Of a stretch of DNA of 64,000 nucleotides, positions 44 through 39,115 are shown in pieces (position 1 is the stretch's first letter; each line of letters opens with the position of its first letter). The notes under the pieces were generated by a model, which did not search any database, was not told the DNA's origin, and was given only the letters and a program-made list of their open reading frames with translations. The stretch covers positions 1 to 64,000 of the forward strand of contig JAFEBQ010000027.1 of the NCBI GenBank assembly GCA_018242585.1. The letters run 5' to 3'. This DNA comes from Planctomycetota bacterium. Its GTDB lineage: Bacteria; Planctomycetota; Planctomycetia; Pirellulales; PNKZ01. Made by a program: the position numbers and the translations under genes.

Positions 44-88
44 CCCTTCTCCCGCCGGGAGAAGGTGGCCGAAGGCCGGATGAGGGTC
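44..88 (+). repeat. REP-like family A, copy A1
   Basis: Palindromic CTTCTCCCGCCGGGAGAAGG is followed by GTGGCC, a GGCC hairpin half and GGATGAGGGTC. The same layout recurs at 36712, 37156 (inverted), 38942 and 39023 (inverted). The stretch 1-261 holds this copy, repeat B1 and the prpD-like leader, and no gene of its own. Confidence 0.85.
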
Positions 89-110: not shown

Positions 111-157
111 CGCGTTTACCCTCCCCCAGCCCCTCCCTGAAAGGGAGAGGTGTTTGT
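111..157 (+). repeat. Dispersed repeat family B, copy B1
   Basis: CGCGTTTACCCTCCCCCAGC is followed by the hairpin CCCCTCCCT-GAA-AGGGAGAGG and TGTTTGTC. A second copy lies in the opposite orientation at 24683-24731. It is non-coding and probably a genome-wide hairpin element. Confidence 0.75.
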
Positions 158-34042: not shown

Positions 34043-36676
34043 ATGTTTGCGGAACGGAATCGCACTCACGATCTTGTCGCGCTGGTGACGGCCGCCGTCA
34101 CGATGTTTATCGCGCTCGCCTTGGTGGGCTATAGCGCGGCCGACGCCCCGTCGCATCTGGTCTACCCGACGGCCAGCGAAGTGCAAAACATCTGCGGCCG
34201 CGCGGGCGCGTGGACTGCGTTCGCGTTGCTCGAAGCGCTGGGCCTGGGGGCGTTTTACCTGGCGGCGTCGCTGGCCGCGTTGGCCTATGTGATGTTCCGC
34301 GGACAGGGAATCAGCGATCGGGCGATGCGCGCCGCCGGTTGGGTGCTGTCGCTGGTCGGGCTGACCGCGCTGTTGGCGATGGCCGTTCCCAGTTGGTCAC
34401 CGGGACCGGCAATCGGCTCGGGAGGTTACCTGGGGGCGATGGTTGCGTCGATGCTCCGCGCGCACGTCGCTTCGGCCGGCGCATATTTGCTGGCCATCAG
34501 CCTGGTGATCGGCGGCTGGCTGTTGTGTACTGATTACCTGATGTTGCACGTGCTGGCCTGGACCAGCCACAAGACCGTCGGCTTCACGAGCCAGGCGCTT
34601 GAGCGCTTGGCGAAACGTCGCGCCGACCATGCCCACGCCCGCCCGGCCGTCGGCCCGTCCATTCGCATCGGCGGCAAGGTGCTCGATGCCATCACGATTG
34701 ACGAAGAGCTGGAACTGAAGCCGGCGACCGTCGCGGAGGTTGACGAGGTCGAGGAAGTTGACGCCGACGCGACGGATGAGAATGAGGCAGTCGATGACGA
34801 AGCCGACGCCGAGCAACCGGCCGAAATCGAACAGCCCGCCGCCGCAGTGGCCGCGCAGGCCCCACCGGTGCCGATCAAGAAGCGTGGCAAGTCGGTCAAG
34901 GACGAGCGGCAAGAAGTGATGAACGCACTGGATCAAGCGGCGAACGCCGACGACGAGCCGGCCGATTATCAGTTGCCGCCGATCGACCTGCTGTTGCCGA
35001 ACGAGAGTTTCTCGTACGAAGAGCAAGAGAAAGAAGTCCGCCGCAAGGCGAAGATCCTGGAGAAGACCTTCGCCAGCTTCGGTTTCAACGTCAAAGTGGT
35101 CGAGATCGAGACCGGGCCGGTGATTGCCCAGTTCGAGGTGGAACTCGAATCGGGGCTGCGGCTGGCGAAGATCACGGGTCTGGCCGACGACTTGGCCATT
35201 GCGCTGCGCGTGCCCAGCGTGCGCATCGTGGCGCCGATTCCTGGCAAGAACACGGTCGGCGTCGAAGTGCCGAACGAAGATCGCCAGCTTGTCCGCATGC
35301 GCGAAGTGATCGAAGAAGCGCAGGGCAAAGCCGGCAAGATGAAGATTCCGATCTACCTGGGCAAGGACGTGGCGGGCAACCCGATGGTCGCCGACCTGGC
35401 CAGCCTGCCTCACTTGCTAATCGCTGGCCGCACGGGGACCGGCAAGAGCGTTTGCTTGAACACGTTGATCATGTCGATGCTGATGACGCGTCGGCCCGAC
35501 GAGTTGCGGATGCTGTTGATCGACCCCAAGATGGTCGAACTCAGCTCGTATAAAACGCTGCCGCACTTGATGCACCCGGTCGTGACCGACATGAAAAAGG
35601 CCGAGGCCCTGCTGGCTTGGGCCGTCGAGAAAATGGAAGAGCGATACGCGCTGTTGGCGCGCGCCGGCGTGCGACACATTTCGGCTTACAACCAACTGGG
35701 CGAAGAAGAGCTGTTCGAGCGCCTGCAGCCCGAGACCGATGAAGAGCAAAAGGCGATTCCGACGCATTTGCCGTACATTGTCATCGTGGCCGACGAAATG
35801 GCCGACCTGATGATGACCTCGGCCAAAGAAGTTGAAACGCACATTATCCGTTTGGCGCAAAAGAGCCGTGCGGTCGGTATTCACCTGGTCCTGGCCACGC
35901 AGAAACCGACCGTGGACGTGATCACCGGTTTGATCAAGTCGAACTTGCCCGCGCGCATCTGCTTTCAGGTGGCCAGCCGCACCGACAGCCGCGTGGTCCT
36001 CGACGAAATGGGGGCCGACAAGCTGCTGGGCAACGGCGACATGCTGTTCCTGTGGCCGGGCACCAGCACGCTGATCCGCGGCCAGGGAACCTACCTCAGC
36101 GACGACGAGATCAACAAGGTGATCGAGTTCGTCGGCACGACCGAGCCCGAGTTCGTGAAGGAACTGGTCCAGTTGAAGTCGAAGGACGCCGCCGGCTCGG
36201 GCCCCGAGCGCTTCAAGCAGCGCGACGAGCTGTACGAGGCGGCCATCGACGTCGTCGTGCGCGAAGGGCGCGGCAGCGTCTCGCTGCTGCAACGCGCCTT
36301 GGGCGTGGGCTATGGCCGCGCGGCGCGGTTAGTCGACTTCATGGCCGAGGATGGGATTGTCGGCGACTACAACGGCTCGCAGGCCCGCGAGGTGCTCATC
36401 ACCCTGGAACAATGGGCCGAAATGAGCGGCCAAGGGGCCGCCGCGGCCGAACCGCCGCCGAGCGCGGCCAAACGCTCGAACCGCATCAAGCCGGAGCACG
36501 ACGAGTTCGGCGAAGGTGACGAGTCCGACGTCGATGCCGAGACGGACGACGCCGACGCGTTTGACGAGGACGCTGAATCGAGCGATGACGTCGAAGAAGT
36601 GTCGGACGAACTCGACGCCAGTGAAGACACCGACGACGAAGCGTCGGATGACGACGAACTGGCCGAGAGCGCTTAG
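34043..36676 (+). CDS. ftsK: DNA translocase FtsK/SpoIIIE
   Basis: 877 residues. Four N-terminal membrane helices (about 15-165), an acidic linker (about 225-310), then the motor: alpha domain near 320-420, beta domain with Walker A GRTGTGKS at 462-469 and Walker B VIVADEMADLMM near 580-590, and a gamma winged helix (SVSLLQRALGVGYGRAARLV) for KOPS-type sequence recognition. Pumps chromosome dimers apart at the septum. Unusually, about 70 residues follow the gamma domain and the last 50 are almost all Asp, Glu, Ser and Ala. Planctomycetes often lack FtsZ, so the septal partner may differ. Confidence 0.95.
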   Translation: MFAERNRTHDLVALVTAAVTMFIALALVGYSAADAPSHLVYPTASEVQNICGRAGAWTAFALLEALGLGAFYLAASLAALAYVMFRGQGISDRAMRAAGWVLSLVGLTALLAMAVPSWSPGPAIGSGGYLGAMVASMLRAHVASAGAYLLAISLVIGGWLLCTDYLMLHVLAWTSHKTVGFTSQALERLAKRRADHAHARPAVGPSIRIGGKVLDAITIDEELELKPATVAEVDEVEEVDADATDENEAVDDEADAEQPAEIEQPAAAVAAQAPPVPIKKRGKSVKDERQEVMNALDQAANADDEPADYQLPPIDLLLPNESFSYEEQEKEVRRKAKILEKTFASFGFNVKVVEIETGPVIAQFEVELESGLRLAKITGLADDLAIALRVPSVRIVAPIPGKNTVGVEVPNEDRQLVRMREVIEEAQGKAGKMKIPIYLGKDVAGNPMVADLASLPHLLIAGRTGTGKSVCLNTLIMSMLMTRRPDELRMLLIDPKMVELSSYKTLPHLMHPVVTDMKKAEALLAWAVEKMEERYALLARAGVRHISAYNQLGEEELFERLQPETDEEQKAIPTHLPYIVIVADEMADLMMTSAKEVETHIIRLAQKSRAVGIHLVLATQKPTVDVITGLIKSNLPARICFQVASRTDSRVVLDEMGADKLLGNGDMLFLWPGTSTLIRGQGTYLSDDEINKVIEFVGTTEPEFVKELVQLKSKDAAGSGPERFKQRDELYEAAIDVVVREGRGSVSLLQRALGVGYGRAARLVDFMAEDGIVGDYNGSQAREVLITLEQWAEMSGQGAAAAEPPPSAAKRSNRIKPEHDEFGEGDESDVDAETDDADAFDEDAESSDDVEEVSDELDASEDTDDEASDDDELAESA

Positions 36677-36711
36677 GTGCCCAGATCAAGCCAGCGGGGA
36701 AGGAGGAAACC

Positions 36712-36760
36712 ATTCTCCCCCCGGGAGAAGGTGGCGGCGCTAGCCGCCGGATGAGGATCC
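36712..36760 (+). repeat. REP-like family A, copy A2
   Basis: ATTCTCCCCCCGGGAGAAGG, then TGGCGGCGCTAGCCGCCGG and ATGAGGATCC. The last 21 bases (36740-36760) are also the end of the DUF559 frame on the other strand. Confidence 0.9.
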
Positions 36761-37132
36761 CCGTGGCCCATCCACATGGCGACCACAGGCGAGAAGAATG
36801 CCCTCAACGACGGTATCCAGCGTTCGCAGCACGTCGTCGTTCGCGACTCTCAGCACTTGGATTCCTTGTGCCTCAAGTGCCGCAGTGCGCTGCTGGTCGT
36901 ACGCGGCCTTGCCGATGTGGCTGTCGCCATCTAGTTCGATGGCCAGCCTCGCTTCGTGACAATAGAAGTCGACGAAGTATCTCCCGATGGCCACCTGACG
37001 ACGGAATTTAATGTCGCCGAGTTGGCCATACCGCAGACGGCTCCAAAGCAATCGCTCGGGTGTTGTCGCTTCACGACGCAGACGACGCGCACGCGAGCGC
37101 TACTCGTCGGTGAAGGGCTGGTGACGGGCCAT
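36740..37132 (-). pseudogene. DUF559 (Vsr-like) endonuclease gene with amber codon 11
   Basis: The ATG at 37132 follows AAGGA eight bases upstream and reads MARHQPFTDE, then TAG at 37102-37100, then continues in the same frame as RSRARRLRREATTPERLLW, the usual start of DUF559 proteins. The domain itself is intact: KFRRQVAIGRYFVDFYC, EARLAIELDGDSH, and LRVANDDVLRTLD, the restriction-endonuclease-like fold related to Vsr. No ATG or GTG exists between the stop and the domain, only TTG/CTG. A relative would read Gln at codon 11, one base from TAG. The last six codons (GSSSGG) and stop lie in repeat A2; repeat A3 begins 24 bases before the ATG. Probably inactivated, or read through or started at TTG 37051. 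Confidence 0.82.
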
Positions 37133-37155
37133 CGCTGGTTCCTTGCGCTGCGGGA

Positions 37156-37200
37156 ACCCTCATCCGGACTTCGGCCACCTTCTCCCGAGGGGAGAAGGGT
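37156..37200 (-). repeat. REP-like family A, copy A3 (inverted)
   Basis: ACCCTCATCCGGACTTCGGC and CACCTTCTCCCGAGGGGAGA: reverse orientation to A2, so the two copies bracket the DUF559 gene tail to tail. Confidence 0.9.
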
Positions 37201-37231
37201 CGCTGGCTGGCCGTTCCCGAGGTAGTAAACG

Positions 37232-38791
37232 TCACTCGTCCGCGGCTTTCTTCTTCCCCAGCGGTTTGCCGCCATTCCAGACTTCGACCAGGTCGTCGGA
37301 GCATTGCTTGCGGATGCTATTGTCGGCCAGGATCTCGTCGGTCGCGGCGTCCATGTCGCGACGGCGGAAGACGAACTTCTCGGCGCTCCGATCGGCGAAC
37401 TCCACCTCGGTGTACTCGCCGGTCGCGTCGCGCAGCAACTCGACCGCGTGCTGCAGATTCTTCACCTTGGTGCCGTTGATCTTGCTGACCACGCACATGT
37501 ATTGCTGTGAGTAACCCTTGGTGATCGGGTGGGAGAACTGCGGCGACATGATCGCCACCAGTTCTTCTCCCTCGAACGCCGGCGGTTCAAAGACTCGCGT
37601 CAGGATCGGGCTGTTACGATCGCGCAAATACTTGAGCCAGCGCTCCTCGAGCGCCAGCGCGTAGTCGGCGTAGACTTGCGAAAAAACCAACGGTCCATAG
37701 ATGAAATACCGCGGGTAGCGATACTTCAGATAGGGCGCCAGCAACTTCGCCTGGGCCGAGACCGGCGCGTCGGCCTTCAACTCCTGGCCGTCGCGCCATA
37801 CGGTCAGCGGCACTTTGCCGTTCTTGGCCAATTGGGGGACCATGTAAAAGAACGGCAGTCGCAACTCGTCGGTTACTTTGATCCGTCCCGAGCTGTCAAG
37901 CGCGTGGTCGCCAATGTGCGTGATGCAATCGCCCGCGCGCAGGCCCGTGTCAACAGCCCCCTCGAAGTGCCGCGTCACCATCACGCCCGCCACCGACTTG
38001 GGGAGCTTGAGCCGCGCCCGCAAGGCGTCATTCTCGACTGTCTGCCAGCTTTCAAACAAGCGCGGCTTGCCGTCATAAACGCCGTCCTTGGCGTCGGCAA
38101 GGAACGTCTCGATTTCCTCCGCGGGGATCAGGTAGCCGATGTTCTCGGCGCTGGTGACGGCGGCGAAGGCCATACCCGCGACGACACCGTCGAGCAGCGC
38201 CGGGCCGCCGCTGTTGCCGGGGTTCATGGCCGCGTCGATTTGAATCCGCAGCCCGAGACCGGACTGGTAATAGGTGACGAACTCGATCCGCGAGACGACC
38301 CCCTGGGTCACCGACAACTGCTCGCCGCCGACCGGAAAGCCGTACAACGCCACCGAGCTTTTCAACGCCGGCAACTTGGCCGCGCGCGGCAGGGGCGGAC
38401 GCGTGGCGAAGAAGTCGGCTTCGTTCTCGACGGACAACAGGGCCATGTCCATCTCGGGGGCGAGCAAGACGATCTCGGCGCGCAGCTTGTCGGCCGACTG
38501 GTAGGGCTGGACGTAAATCTGGCTGCCGTTCCCGACGACGTGGGCGTTGGTGAGAATGCGATTCCCCTCGACGACAAAGCCGGTCCCCGTGCTGTCCTGG
38601 GGCGTACTCTTGGTCCAGGGCTGCGTCGGCATGGGGCCGCGCTTGGTGGTCGTGATGTGGACGATCGACTGGCGCGGATCGGGCTTGGCGTCAGCATTCT
38701 TTGAAGAGTCGTCGCCGGCGCGCAATGGCGCAGCCGTGCCGAGAATGATTGTCGAAACCAACACCAGCGCGACCGTGCGACAGCGCGTCAT
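37232..38791 (-). CDS. Exported trypsin-like (DegP/S1C-type) serine protease
   Basis: 519 residues with a signal peptide (MTRCRTVALVLVSTIILGTAAPLRA, shown to its first part by MTRCRTVALVLVST). Protease domain about 40-230 with triad His84 (TNAHVV), Asp115 (EMDMALL) and Ser194 (NPGNSGGP). PDZ-like region about 265-340 (GVMVTRHFEGAVDTGLRAGD) and a second half that looks like another divergent PDZ unit (about 420-490, VSKINGTKVKNLQHAVELL). Resembles plant Deg-type proteases more than short DegP. Probably periplasmic quality control. Stands alone, downstream of nothing obvious. Confidence 0.9.
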   Translation of the reverse strand: MTRCRTVALVLVSTIILGTAAPLRAGDDSSKNADAKPDPRQSIVHITTTKRGPMPTQPWTKSTPQDSTGTGFVVEGNRILTNAHVVGNGSQIYVQPYQSADKLRAEIVLLAPEMDMALLSVENEADFFATRPPLPRAAKLPALKSSVALYGFPVGGEQLSVTQGVVSRIEFVTYYQSGLGLRIQIDAAMNPGNSGGPALLDGVVAGMAFAAVTSAENIGYLIPAEEIETFLADAKDGVYDGKPRLFESWQTVENDALRARLKLPKSVAGVMVTRHFEGAVDTGLRAGDCITHIGDHALDSSGRIKVTDELRLPFFYMVPQLAKNGKVPLTVWRDGQELKADAPVSAQAKLLAPYLKYRYPRYFIYGPLVFSQVYADYALALEERWLKYLRDRNSPILTRVFEPPAFEGEELVAIMSPQFSHPITKGYSQQYMCVVSKINGTKVKNLQHAVELLRDATGEYTEVEFADRSAEKFVFRRRDMDAATDEILADNSIRKQCSDDLVEVWNGGKPLGKKKAADE

Positions 38792-38941
38792 TTCAAATGC
38801 CCTCGGCAGGTGAGAACTCGCCGGCAGTCGTCCATCGAAGCCGGCAAGTGGCCGTCAGTATCAGGGCGTGGCCAGCACCGGTCAAGCGCGCGAGTGTGCA
38901 GACGTAAAGCACGGATGAACTGTCGGGACGGCAACTATCAA

Positions 38942-38990
38942 CCCTTCTCCCTCCGGGAGAAGGTGGCCGATAGGCCGGATGAGGATCCCC
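38942..38990 (+). repeat. REP-like family A, copy A4
   Basis: CCCTTCTCCCTCCGGGAGAA, GGTGGCCGATAGGCCGGATG, AGGATCCCC. Forms an inverted pair with A5, separated by 32 bases. Confidence 0.9.
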
Positions 38991-39022
38991 TTTCCAGCAG
39001 TGCGGCGCCAGACCGACGCGCG

Positions 39023-39072
39023 ACCCTCATCCGGTTCGCTGCGCTCACCACCTTCTCCCCGGGGGAGAAGGA
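39023..39072 (-). repeat. REP-like family A, copy A5 (inverted)
   Basis: ACCCTCATCCGGTTCGCTGC, GCTCACCACCTTCTCCCCGG, GGGAGAAGGA: inverted relative to A4, with a different middle (TTCGCTGCGCTCA). Confidence 0.88.
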
Positions 39073-39115
39073 TTAGGACAAAGCCCTCGCGCCTGTCAAA
39101 TAACTCGCGTCCGCC

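Follow-up and report, generated by a model that had tools for sequence, protein, structure and literature searches.

The stretch of DNA analysed here (64,000 nt from a Planctomycetota bacterium, hereafter the window) contains a small cassette, made up of a nuclease gene and two palindromic repeats in inverted orientation. Its features, its neighbours and the related elements discussed below are as follows.

34043-36676, plus strand: left neighbour, a large ORF that we take, by reading, to be FtsK/SpoIIIE-like
36709-37202, minus strand: whole cassette; similarity to the genome's two other cassettes stops at these borders
36709-36759, plus strand: downstream terminal repeat, "long" type, with inner hairpin GGCGGCGCTAGCCGCC, in opposite orientation to the upstream repeat
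36740-37132, minus strand: DUF559 nuclease frame, with ATG at 37132, stop TAG at 36742-36740 and a premature TAG at codon 11
36740-37051, minus strand: ORF remaining after the premature TAG, TTG start, 103 aa, without the N-terminal part of the domain
37100-37102, minus strand: in-frame amber codon 11
37140-37144, minus strand: AAGGA ribosome-binding site, read from the sequence, 7 nt before the ATG
37154-37202, minus strand: upstream terminal repeat, "short" type, reading C-arm / G-arm / GGCCGAAGTCC mini-hairpin / GGATGAGGG, third arm toward the gene
37232-38791, minus strand: right neighbour, presumably an HtrA-like trypsin-type protease by reading
38941-39073: gene-less miniature, short repeat 38944-38984 (+), 40-nt spacer, long repeat 39025-39070 (-), convergent
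46-148: composite miniature, short family-A repeat 46-85 (+) facing a family-B hairpin with its core at 132-148 (-)
C8:75323-75811 (another contig of the same genome): paralogous cassette
C19:179386-179876 (same genome): paralogous cassette

The original prediction had read the frame as a DUF559 gene with a good ribosome-binding site and start codon, interrupted by TAG at codon 11 (37102-37100) and followed by the intact domain in the same frame, and all of this was borne out. The portion of the frame 3' of the TAG matches the Pfam profile PF04480 with an E value of 7.7e-37, and the window gene scores 125.9 bits against a curated cut-off of 20.6. The encoded protein is a stand-alone DUF559 nuclease of the PD-(D/E)XK, Vsr-like type. 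It has a solved relative in 3hrl (5e-37), while the NCBIfam model PRK09767 matched all 11 of the proteins tested, the first of them below the curated cut-off. The same domain family includes E. coli YcjD and the Vsr-like nucleases; YcjD carries no assigned function, and Vsr is a mismatch-nicking repair enzyme. A defence-system reading was tried and set aside, as PADLOC returned only weak and scattered matches.

Inverted family-A repeats were expected on both sides of the gene, and both are present, the 27-nt arms at 36709-36735 and 37174-37200 being 93% complementary; the two copies are not equivalent, however, one being of the short and the other of the long type. In each terminal repeat a C-rich arm and its G-rich complement are followed by a small inner hairpin and another G-rich arm, and it is the inner hairpin that differs between the ends (short GGCCGAAGTCC upstream, long GGCGGCGCTAGCCGCC downstream). 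The two repeats are palindromic and convergent, with hairpins predicted by folding, and because a C-arm is followed by a complementary G-arm and a second G-arm, one strand can fold either as a hairpin or as an intrastrand triplex. A search for such tripartite (PIT/TM) motifs found the upstream window copy with all three arms, whereas the downstream copy fell narrowly over the mismatch limit, which its paralogues pass. As had also been noted, the downstream repeat overlaps the end of the gene and supplies its last codons and stop. Of 66 cassettes, 16 have their stop codon within the downstream repeat (for example ...NPLP followed by the stop; loci L009-L041, L072-L151), which thus encodes the tail of the protein.

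Pairwise comparison of the three cassettes gave 74-78% identity within the borders set by the repeats and 42-50% just outside them, about the level of unrelated sequence, so the flanks are unrelated. The nuclease copies show dN/dS of 0.12-0.19, indicating purifying selection, and with dS near 1 or above these cassettes are not recent but old relative to each other. Codon 11 is CAG (Gln) in both paralogues, the residue for which copies in sister strains were to be checked. The window copy is probably an inactivated pseudogene, the dead relative of two apparently intact cassettes, although a single base decides this. The in-frame TAG behind the term "decayed" is real in the assembly, but the decay itself hinges on one C-to-T change, and a sequencing error would look alike and cannot be separated from it. 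A further DUF559 copy with an in-frame TAG occurs in genome G052 (C4:471081), which also carries two DUF559 cassettes in the same orientation about 1.16 kb apart (C3:481977 and C3:483137).

The three further gene-less repeat copies reported for the window were all recovered (46-85 on the plus strand, 38944-38984 on the plus strand and 39025-39070 on the minus strand), the last two forming one convergent miniature. A search of the window's own genome gave 127 matches, and a relaxed motif occurred 218 times against 0 for the reversed pattern, so these matches are not due to chance. Among the copies listed by the own-genome search, close pairs are convergent in 22 of 22 cases. The genome holds at least 22 gene-less miniatures, and in all 22 convergent pairs resolved in a first pass of sequence retrieval outside the cassettes one end is long and the other short. 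The window pair at 38944-39070 and the cassettes obey the same rule. The lengths of the miniature spacers group around 40-45, 79-89 and 178-199 nt, and homology between some of these spacers is clear, as would be expected if whole pairs are copied. Several long repeats that seem single face a family-B repeat instead. The family-B hairpin of the composite miniature at 46-148 is of the kind flanking a fourth DUF559 gene of the genome (C41:125920-127600). That gene is accompanied by a repeat family of its own (family-B and family-C repeats at the locus), and a near-identical second copy of the repeat pair lies next to it, at a distance of about 240 nt. The suggestion that gene-less copies are non-autonomous derivatives is upheld by their keeping the same two ends and polarity. 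They resemble MITEs in being short gene-less units with the terminal repeats of a larger unit, and differ in that the cassette has no DDE transposase and no target-site duplication was seen for it.

This organization recalls REPIN-RAYT systems, in which multi-copy intergenic inverted pairs of short palindromes surround an enzyme gene and gene-less pairs act as non-autonomous units; multi-copy inverted pairs of short palindromic repeats are likewise what the 22 convergent pairs and 218 motif matches represent here. The enzymes differ, that of REPIN-RAYT being a Y1 HUH transposase (TnpA-REP) and that of the cassette a PD-(D/E)XK DUF559 nuclease. The repeats differ as well, those of the cassette being tripartite (C-arm/G-arm/G-arm) and ending in AACC/CTTCTCC and GGATGAGGGTC rather than in the GTAG/CGTC foot tag. 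The genome does have ten Y1_Tnp matches, and Y1 presence correlates with the repeats at the genome level (p 0.001-0.01), so one could suppose that these are ordinary REPs moved by RAYT/TnpA-REP transposases with the DUF559 gene as a passenger. Yet 0 of 6 examined Y1 genes lie between family A or B repeats; inverted repeats of another kind accompany five of them (e.g. GGTAGCACCGG...CCGG) and none the sixth, although one of the regions includes a single family-A short copy. Nor would inverted repeats keep appearing at DUF559 genes in many phyla if the gene were a passenger, and we regard this explanation as improbable. Y1 (RAYT-like) genes lie on contigs C3, C48, C20, C29, C27 and C19 with other inverted repeats such as GGTAGCACCGGTTGCTTGCAACCGG, and at least two independent REP-type systems therefore seem to coexist in the genome. 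The likeness to RAYT-REP pairs with a different enzyme, as first proposed, is supported.

Whether the repeats accompany DUF559 genes elsewhere was examined at two levels. Across 58 genomes from the order of the window genome, an inverted palindromic pair surrounds most of the stand-alone DUF559 genes, a strong pair being present at 17 of 23 loci; some of the remainder are partial genes or lie near contig ends. A cross-phylum sample comprised 80 named loci, 74 of them scorable, from Proteobacteria, Planctomycetes, Chloroflexi, Nitrospirae, candidate phyla and others. Here a strong inverted pair was found at 51 of 74 stand-alone DUF559 genes compared with 2 of 666 genes in their neighbourhood on these contigs (p about 4e-58), an outcome in favour of the first proposal. 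A sequence-independent search placed the tripartite motif on both sides of 46 of 73 DUF559 loci and 20 of 648 controls. In 54 of 66 cases the third arm points toward the gene, and the repeat is multi-copy in 23 of 25 host genomes, with a reversed-pattern control of 0. In one Nitrospiria genome (G069) close TM pairs are divergent and the pair around the DUF559 gene is convergent. The association of DUF559 with the repeats is strong and general. That GC-rich terminators or regulatory hairpins should by chance adjoin the gene fits with the repeats being intergenic and foldable, but hardly with the excess over neighbouring genes or the uniform convergence of the 22 pairs, and the E. coli version of the motif was without promoter or terminator activity in an earlier study (reported in PMC4666352); coincidence is accordingly a most implausible account.

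DUF559 is found more often in the repeat-rich genomes of the order than in the others (14 of 16 versus 12 of 42, p = 7e-5). Ten DUF559-negative genomes have at least 10 repeat copies, and repeat-rich genomes with no detectable stand-alone DUF559 gene include G005 (159 copies) and G037 (104), so dependence of the repeats on the nuclease is not absolute. Repeat and nuclease similarity covary (Mantel rho 0.25, p = 5e-4, host relatedness not being corrected for). Some DUF559 genes lack a strong inverted pair, and some look vertically inherited. A plasmid-borne copy in Azospirillum brasilense has no strong inverted pair and is common to related plasmids, and was rejected as a case of recent movement on near-identical plasmids. 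In A. lipoferum the inverted pair is present, and no informative cassette-free plasmid was found.

Empty sites, by which the mobility of the unit could be checked, were found in two genera. The two genes that flank the cassette region in Rhodanobacter fulvus adjoin each other directly in most of 44 congeners. Of the cassette-free alleles, the closest has the sequence ...GACGAAACGAAGAGCG/TGCTTCTGCC..., and the filled allele of R. fulvus runs GAAGAGCG, then the insert (starting CCCCCTCACCCC and ending GGGGTGAGGGGG), then CGCTTCTC. No target-site duplication is visible at this closest cassette-free site. In Sphingopyxis the cassette occupies one locus in 7 of 60 sampled genomes, the query's own counted; several genomes are cassette-free there with little or no extra sequence, and one keeps a single flanking repeat. 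Other species carry unrelated inverted-repeat miniatures at the same site (GTTCGTGTCGAGCGAAGTCGAGACAC and TTCGGGCTGAGCTTGTCGAAGC families), which suggests that this intergenic site is an insertion hotspot. Presence and absence at orthologous sites are thus established in both genera, although such comparisons do not prove the direction of change; no transposition event or excision product was seen. At the window's own locus a cassette-free site was not obtained, a close syntenic match for the HtrA-like neighbour not being found in the family.

These alleles also bear on a homing-type spread, in which the nuclease would cut a repeat-like target in a cassette-free allele and homologous repair would copy the cassette in, with no true transposition. 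The closest Rhodanobacter cassette-free allele has a short palindrome at the insertion point (GAAGAGCG/TGCTTCT), a second species has a related cassette at the same place, and the nuclease has a distant sequence relation to the mobile-intron endonuclease 3r3p (E 4e-5). I-Bth0305I-type (Vsr-like) homing endonucleases are, like the cassette enzyme, small stand-alone nucleases that could drive the spread of their own gene. Unlike them, the cassette has palindromic ends and gene-less miniatures and is without intron or intein; the window gene is intergenic with its own start and stop and interrupts no target gene. Allelic homing by itself does not explain copies that lie at unrelated sites of one genome and share no flanks, and we think it quite unlikely that homing accounts for the element.

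The repeats have counterparts outside this group. PIT/TM intrastrand-triplex motifs occur in over 260 bacterial genomes and are linked to genome instability (PMC4666352). The motif of the cassette repeats is the same as that of TM-ECO (Holder et al. 2015, PMC4666352), namely CCCTCNCCC N3-6 GGGNGAGGG N3 GGGNGAGGG, although in the window family the inner hairpins are longer and the arms read CTTCTCC. Triplex formation in vitro was shown for TM-ECO, and E. coli MG1655 has 23 TM copies of two types, with TTA and CCG spacers (PMC4666352). From Table 1 of that publication we read that 5 of 5 close TM pairs combine type A with type B, four being convergent and one divergent. In the vicinity of TMs the authors noted no mobility function, and their text does not mention DUF559 or endonucleases. 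A search of the literature naming DUF559, excluding preprints and most subscription journals, found no link to these repeats. TM 9 (1,351,204-1,351,239) lies between fabI and ycjD, the DUF559 gene of E. coli, and a degenerate TM copy overlaps the end of ycjD. This gene is conserved in phylogroups A, B1 and C, with eefRABCD in its place in others (PMC12817139). E. coli is thus no proof of mobility, and ycjD was rejected as a clean filled/empty pair since strains lacking it have the eefRABCD operon there, which is not a simple site.

Such conservation could instead indicate maintenance or repair, with a structure-specific nuclease that processes repeat hairpins or triplexes being kept beside its substrate and the repeats themselves multiplying in some other way (slippage, recombination or another transposase). 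That the nuclease is under purifying selection fits this explanation, as does the kinship of the YcjD profile with Vsr, a repair nuclease (PMC1189080). It leaves unexplained the recurrent enclosure of the gene by an inverted pair, the paralogous cassettes ending at repeats and the miniatures keeping the same ends and polarity, and we consider it unlikely.

We favor, with a probability of roughly 0.6, a REPIN-like two-component selfish element: a Vsr-fold nuclease gene bounded by convergent, non-identical palindromic ends on which the nuclease would act. The basis for this reading is the anatomy, the miniatures with the same ends and polarity, the recurrence across phyla, the purifying selection and the filled and empty sites; from these we infer the action of the nuclease on the ends and every chemical step. 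The original idea that nuclease and repeat form one mobile or self-maintaining unit is supported, and the nuclease likely mobilises both cassette and repeats. On the most parsimonious model it would recognise the folded ends and nick or cut them, probably while they are single-stranded during replication; repair or ligation would then copy the unit into intergenic sites not occupied before. Pairs that have the same two ends but no gene may be carried along, like MITEs or REPINs.

More tentatively, and at slightly less than even odds, DUF559 with triplex-capable tripartite ends may be a separate, widespread class of mobile element, in which a lone nuclease, unaided by a transposase or recombinase, spreads its own gene together with the PIT/TM repeats of hundreds of genomes, E. 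coli included. The spread of PIT/TM repeats had no gene to explain it (PMC4666352), and DUF559 is now a specific candidate. As the candidate enzyme adjoins one TM repeat in E. coli K-12 itself, the old question becomes testable at the bench. The arrangement of a REP with a dedicated enzyme is suggested to have arisen more than once, with unrelated enzymes, and a large family still named a domain of unknown function would gain its first functional hypothesis.
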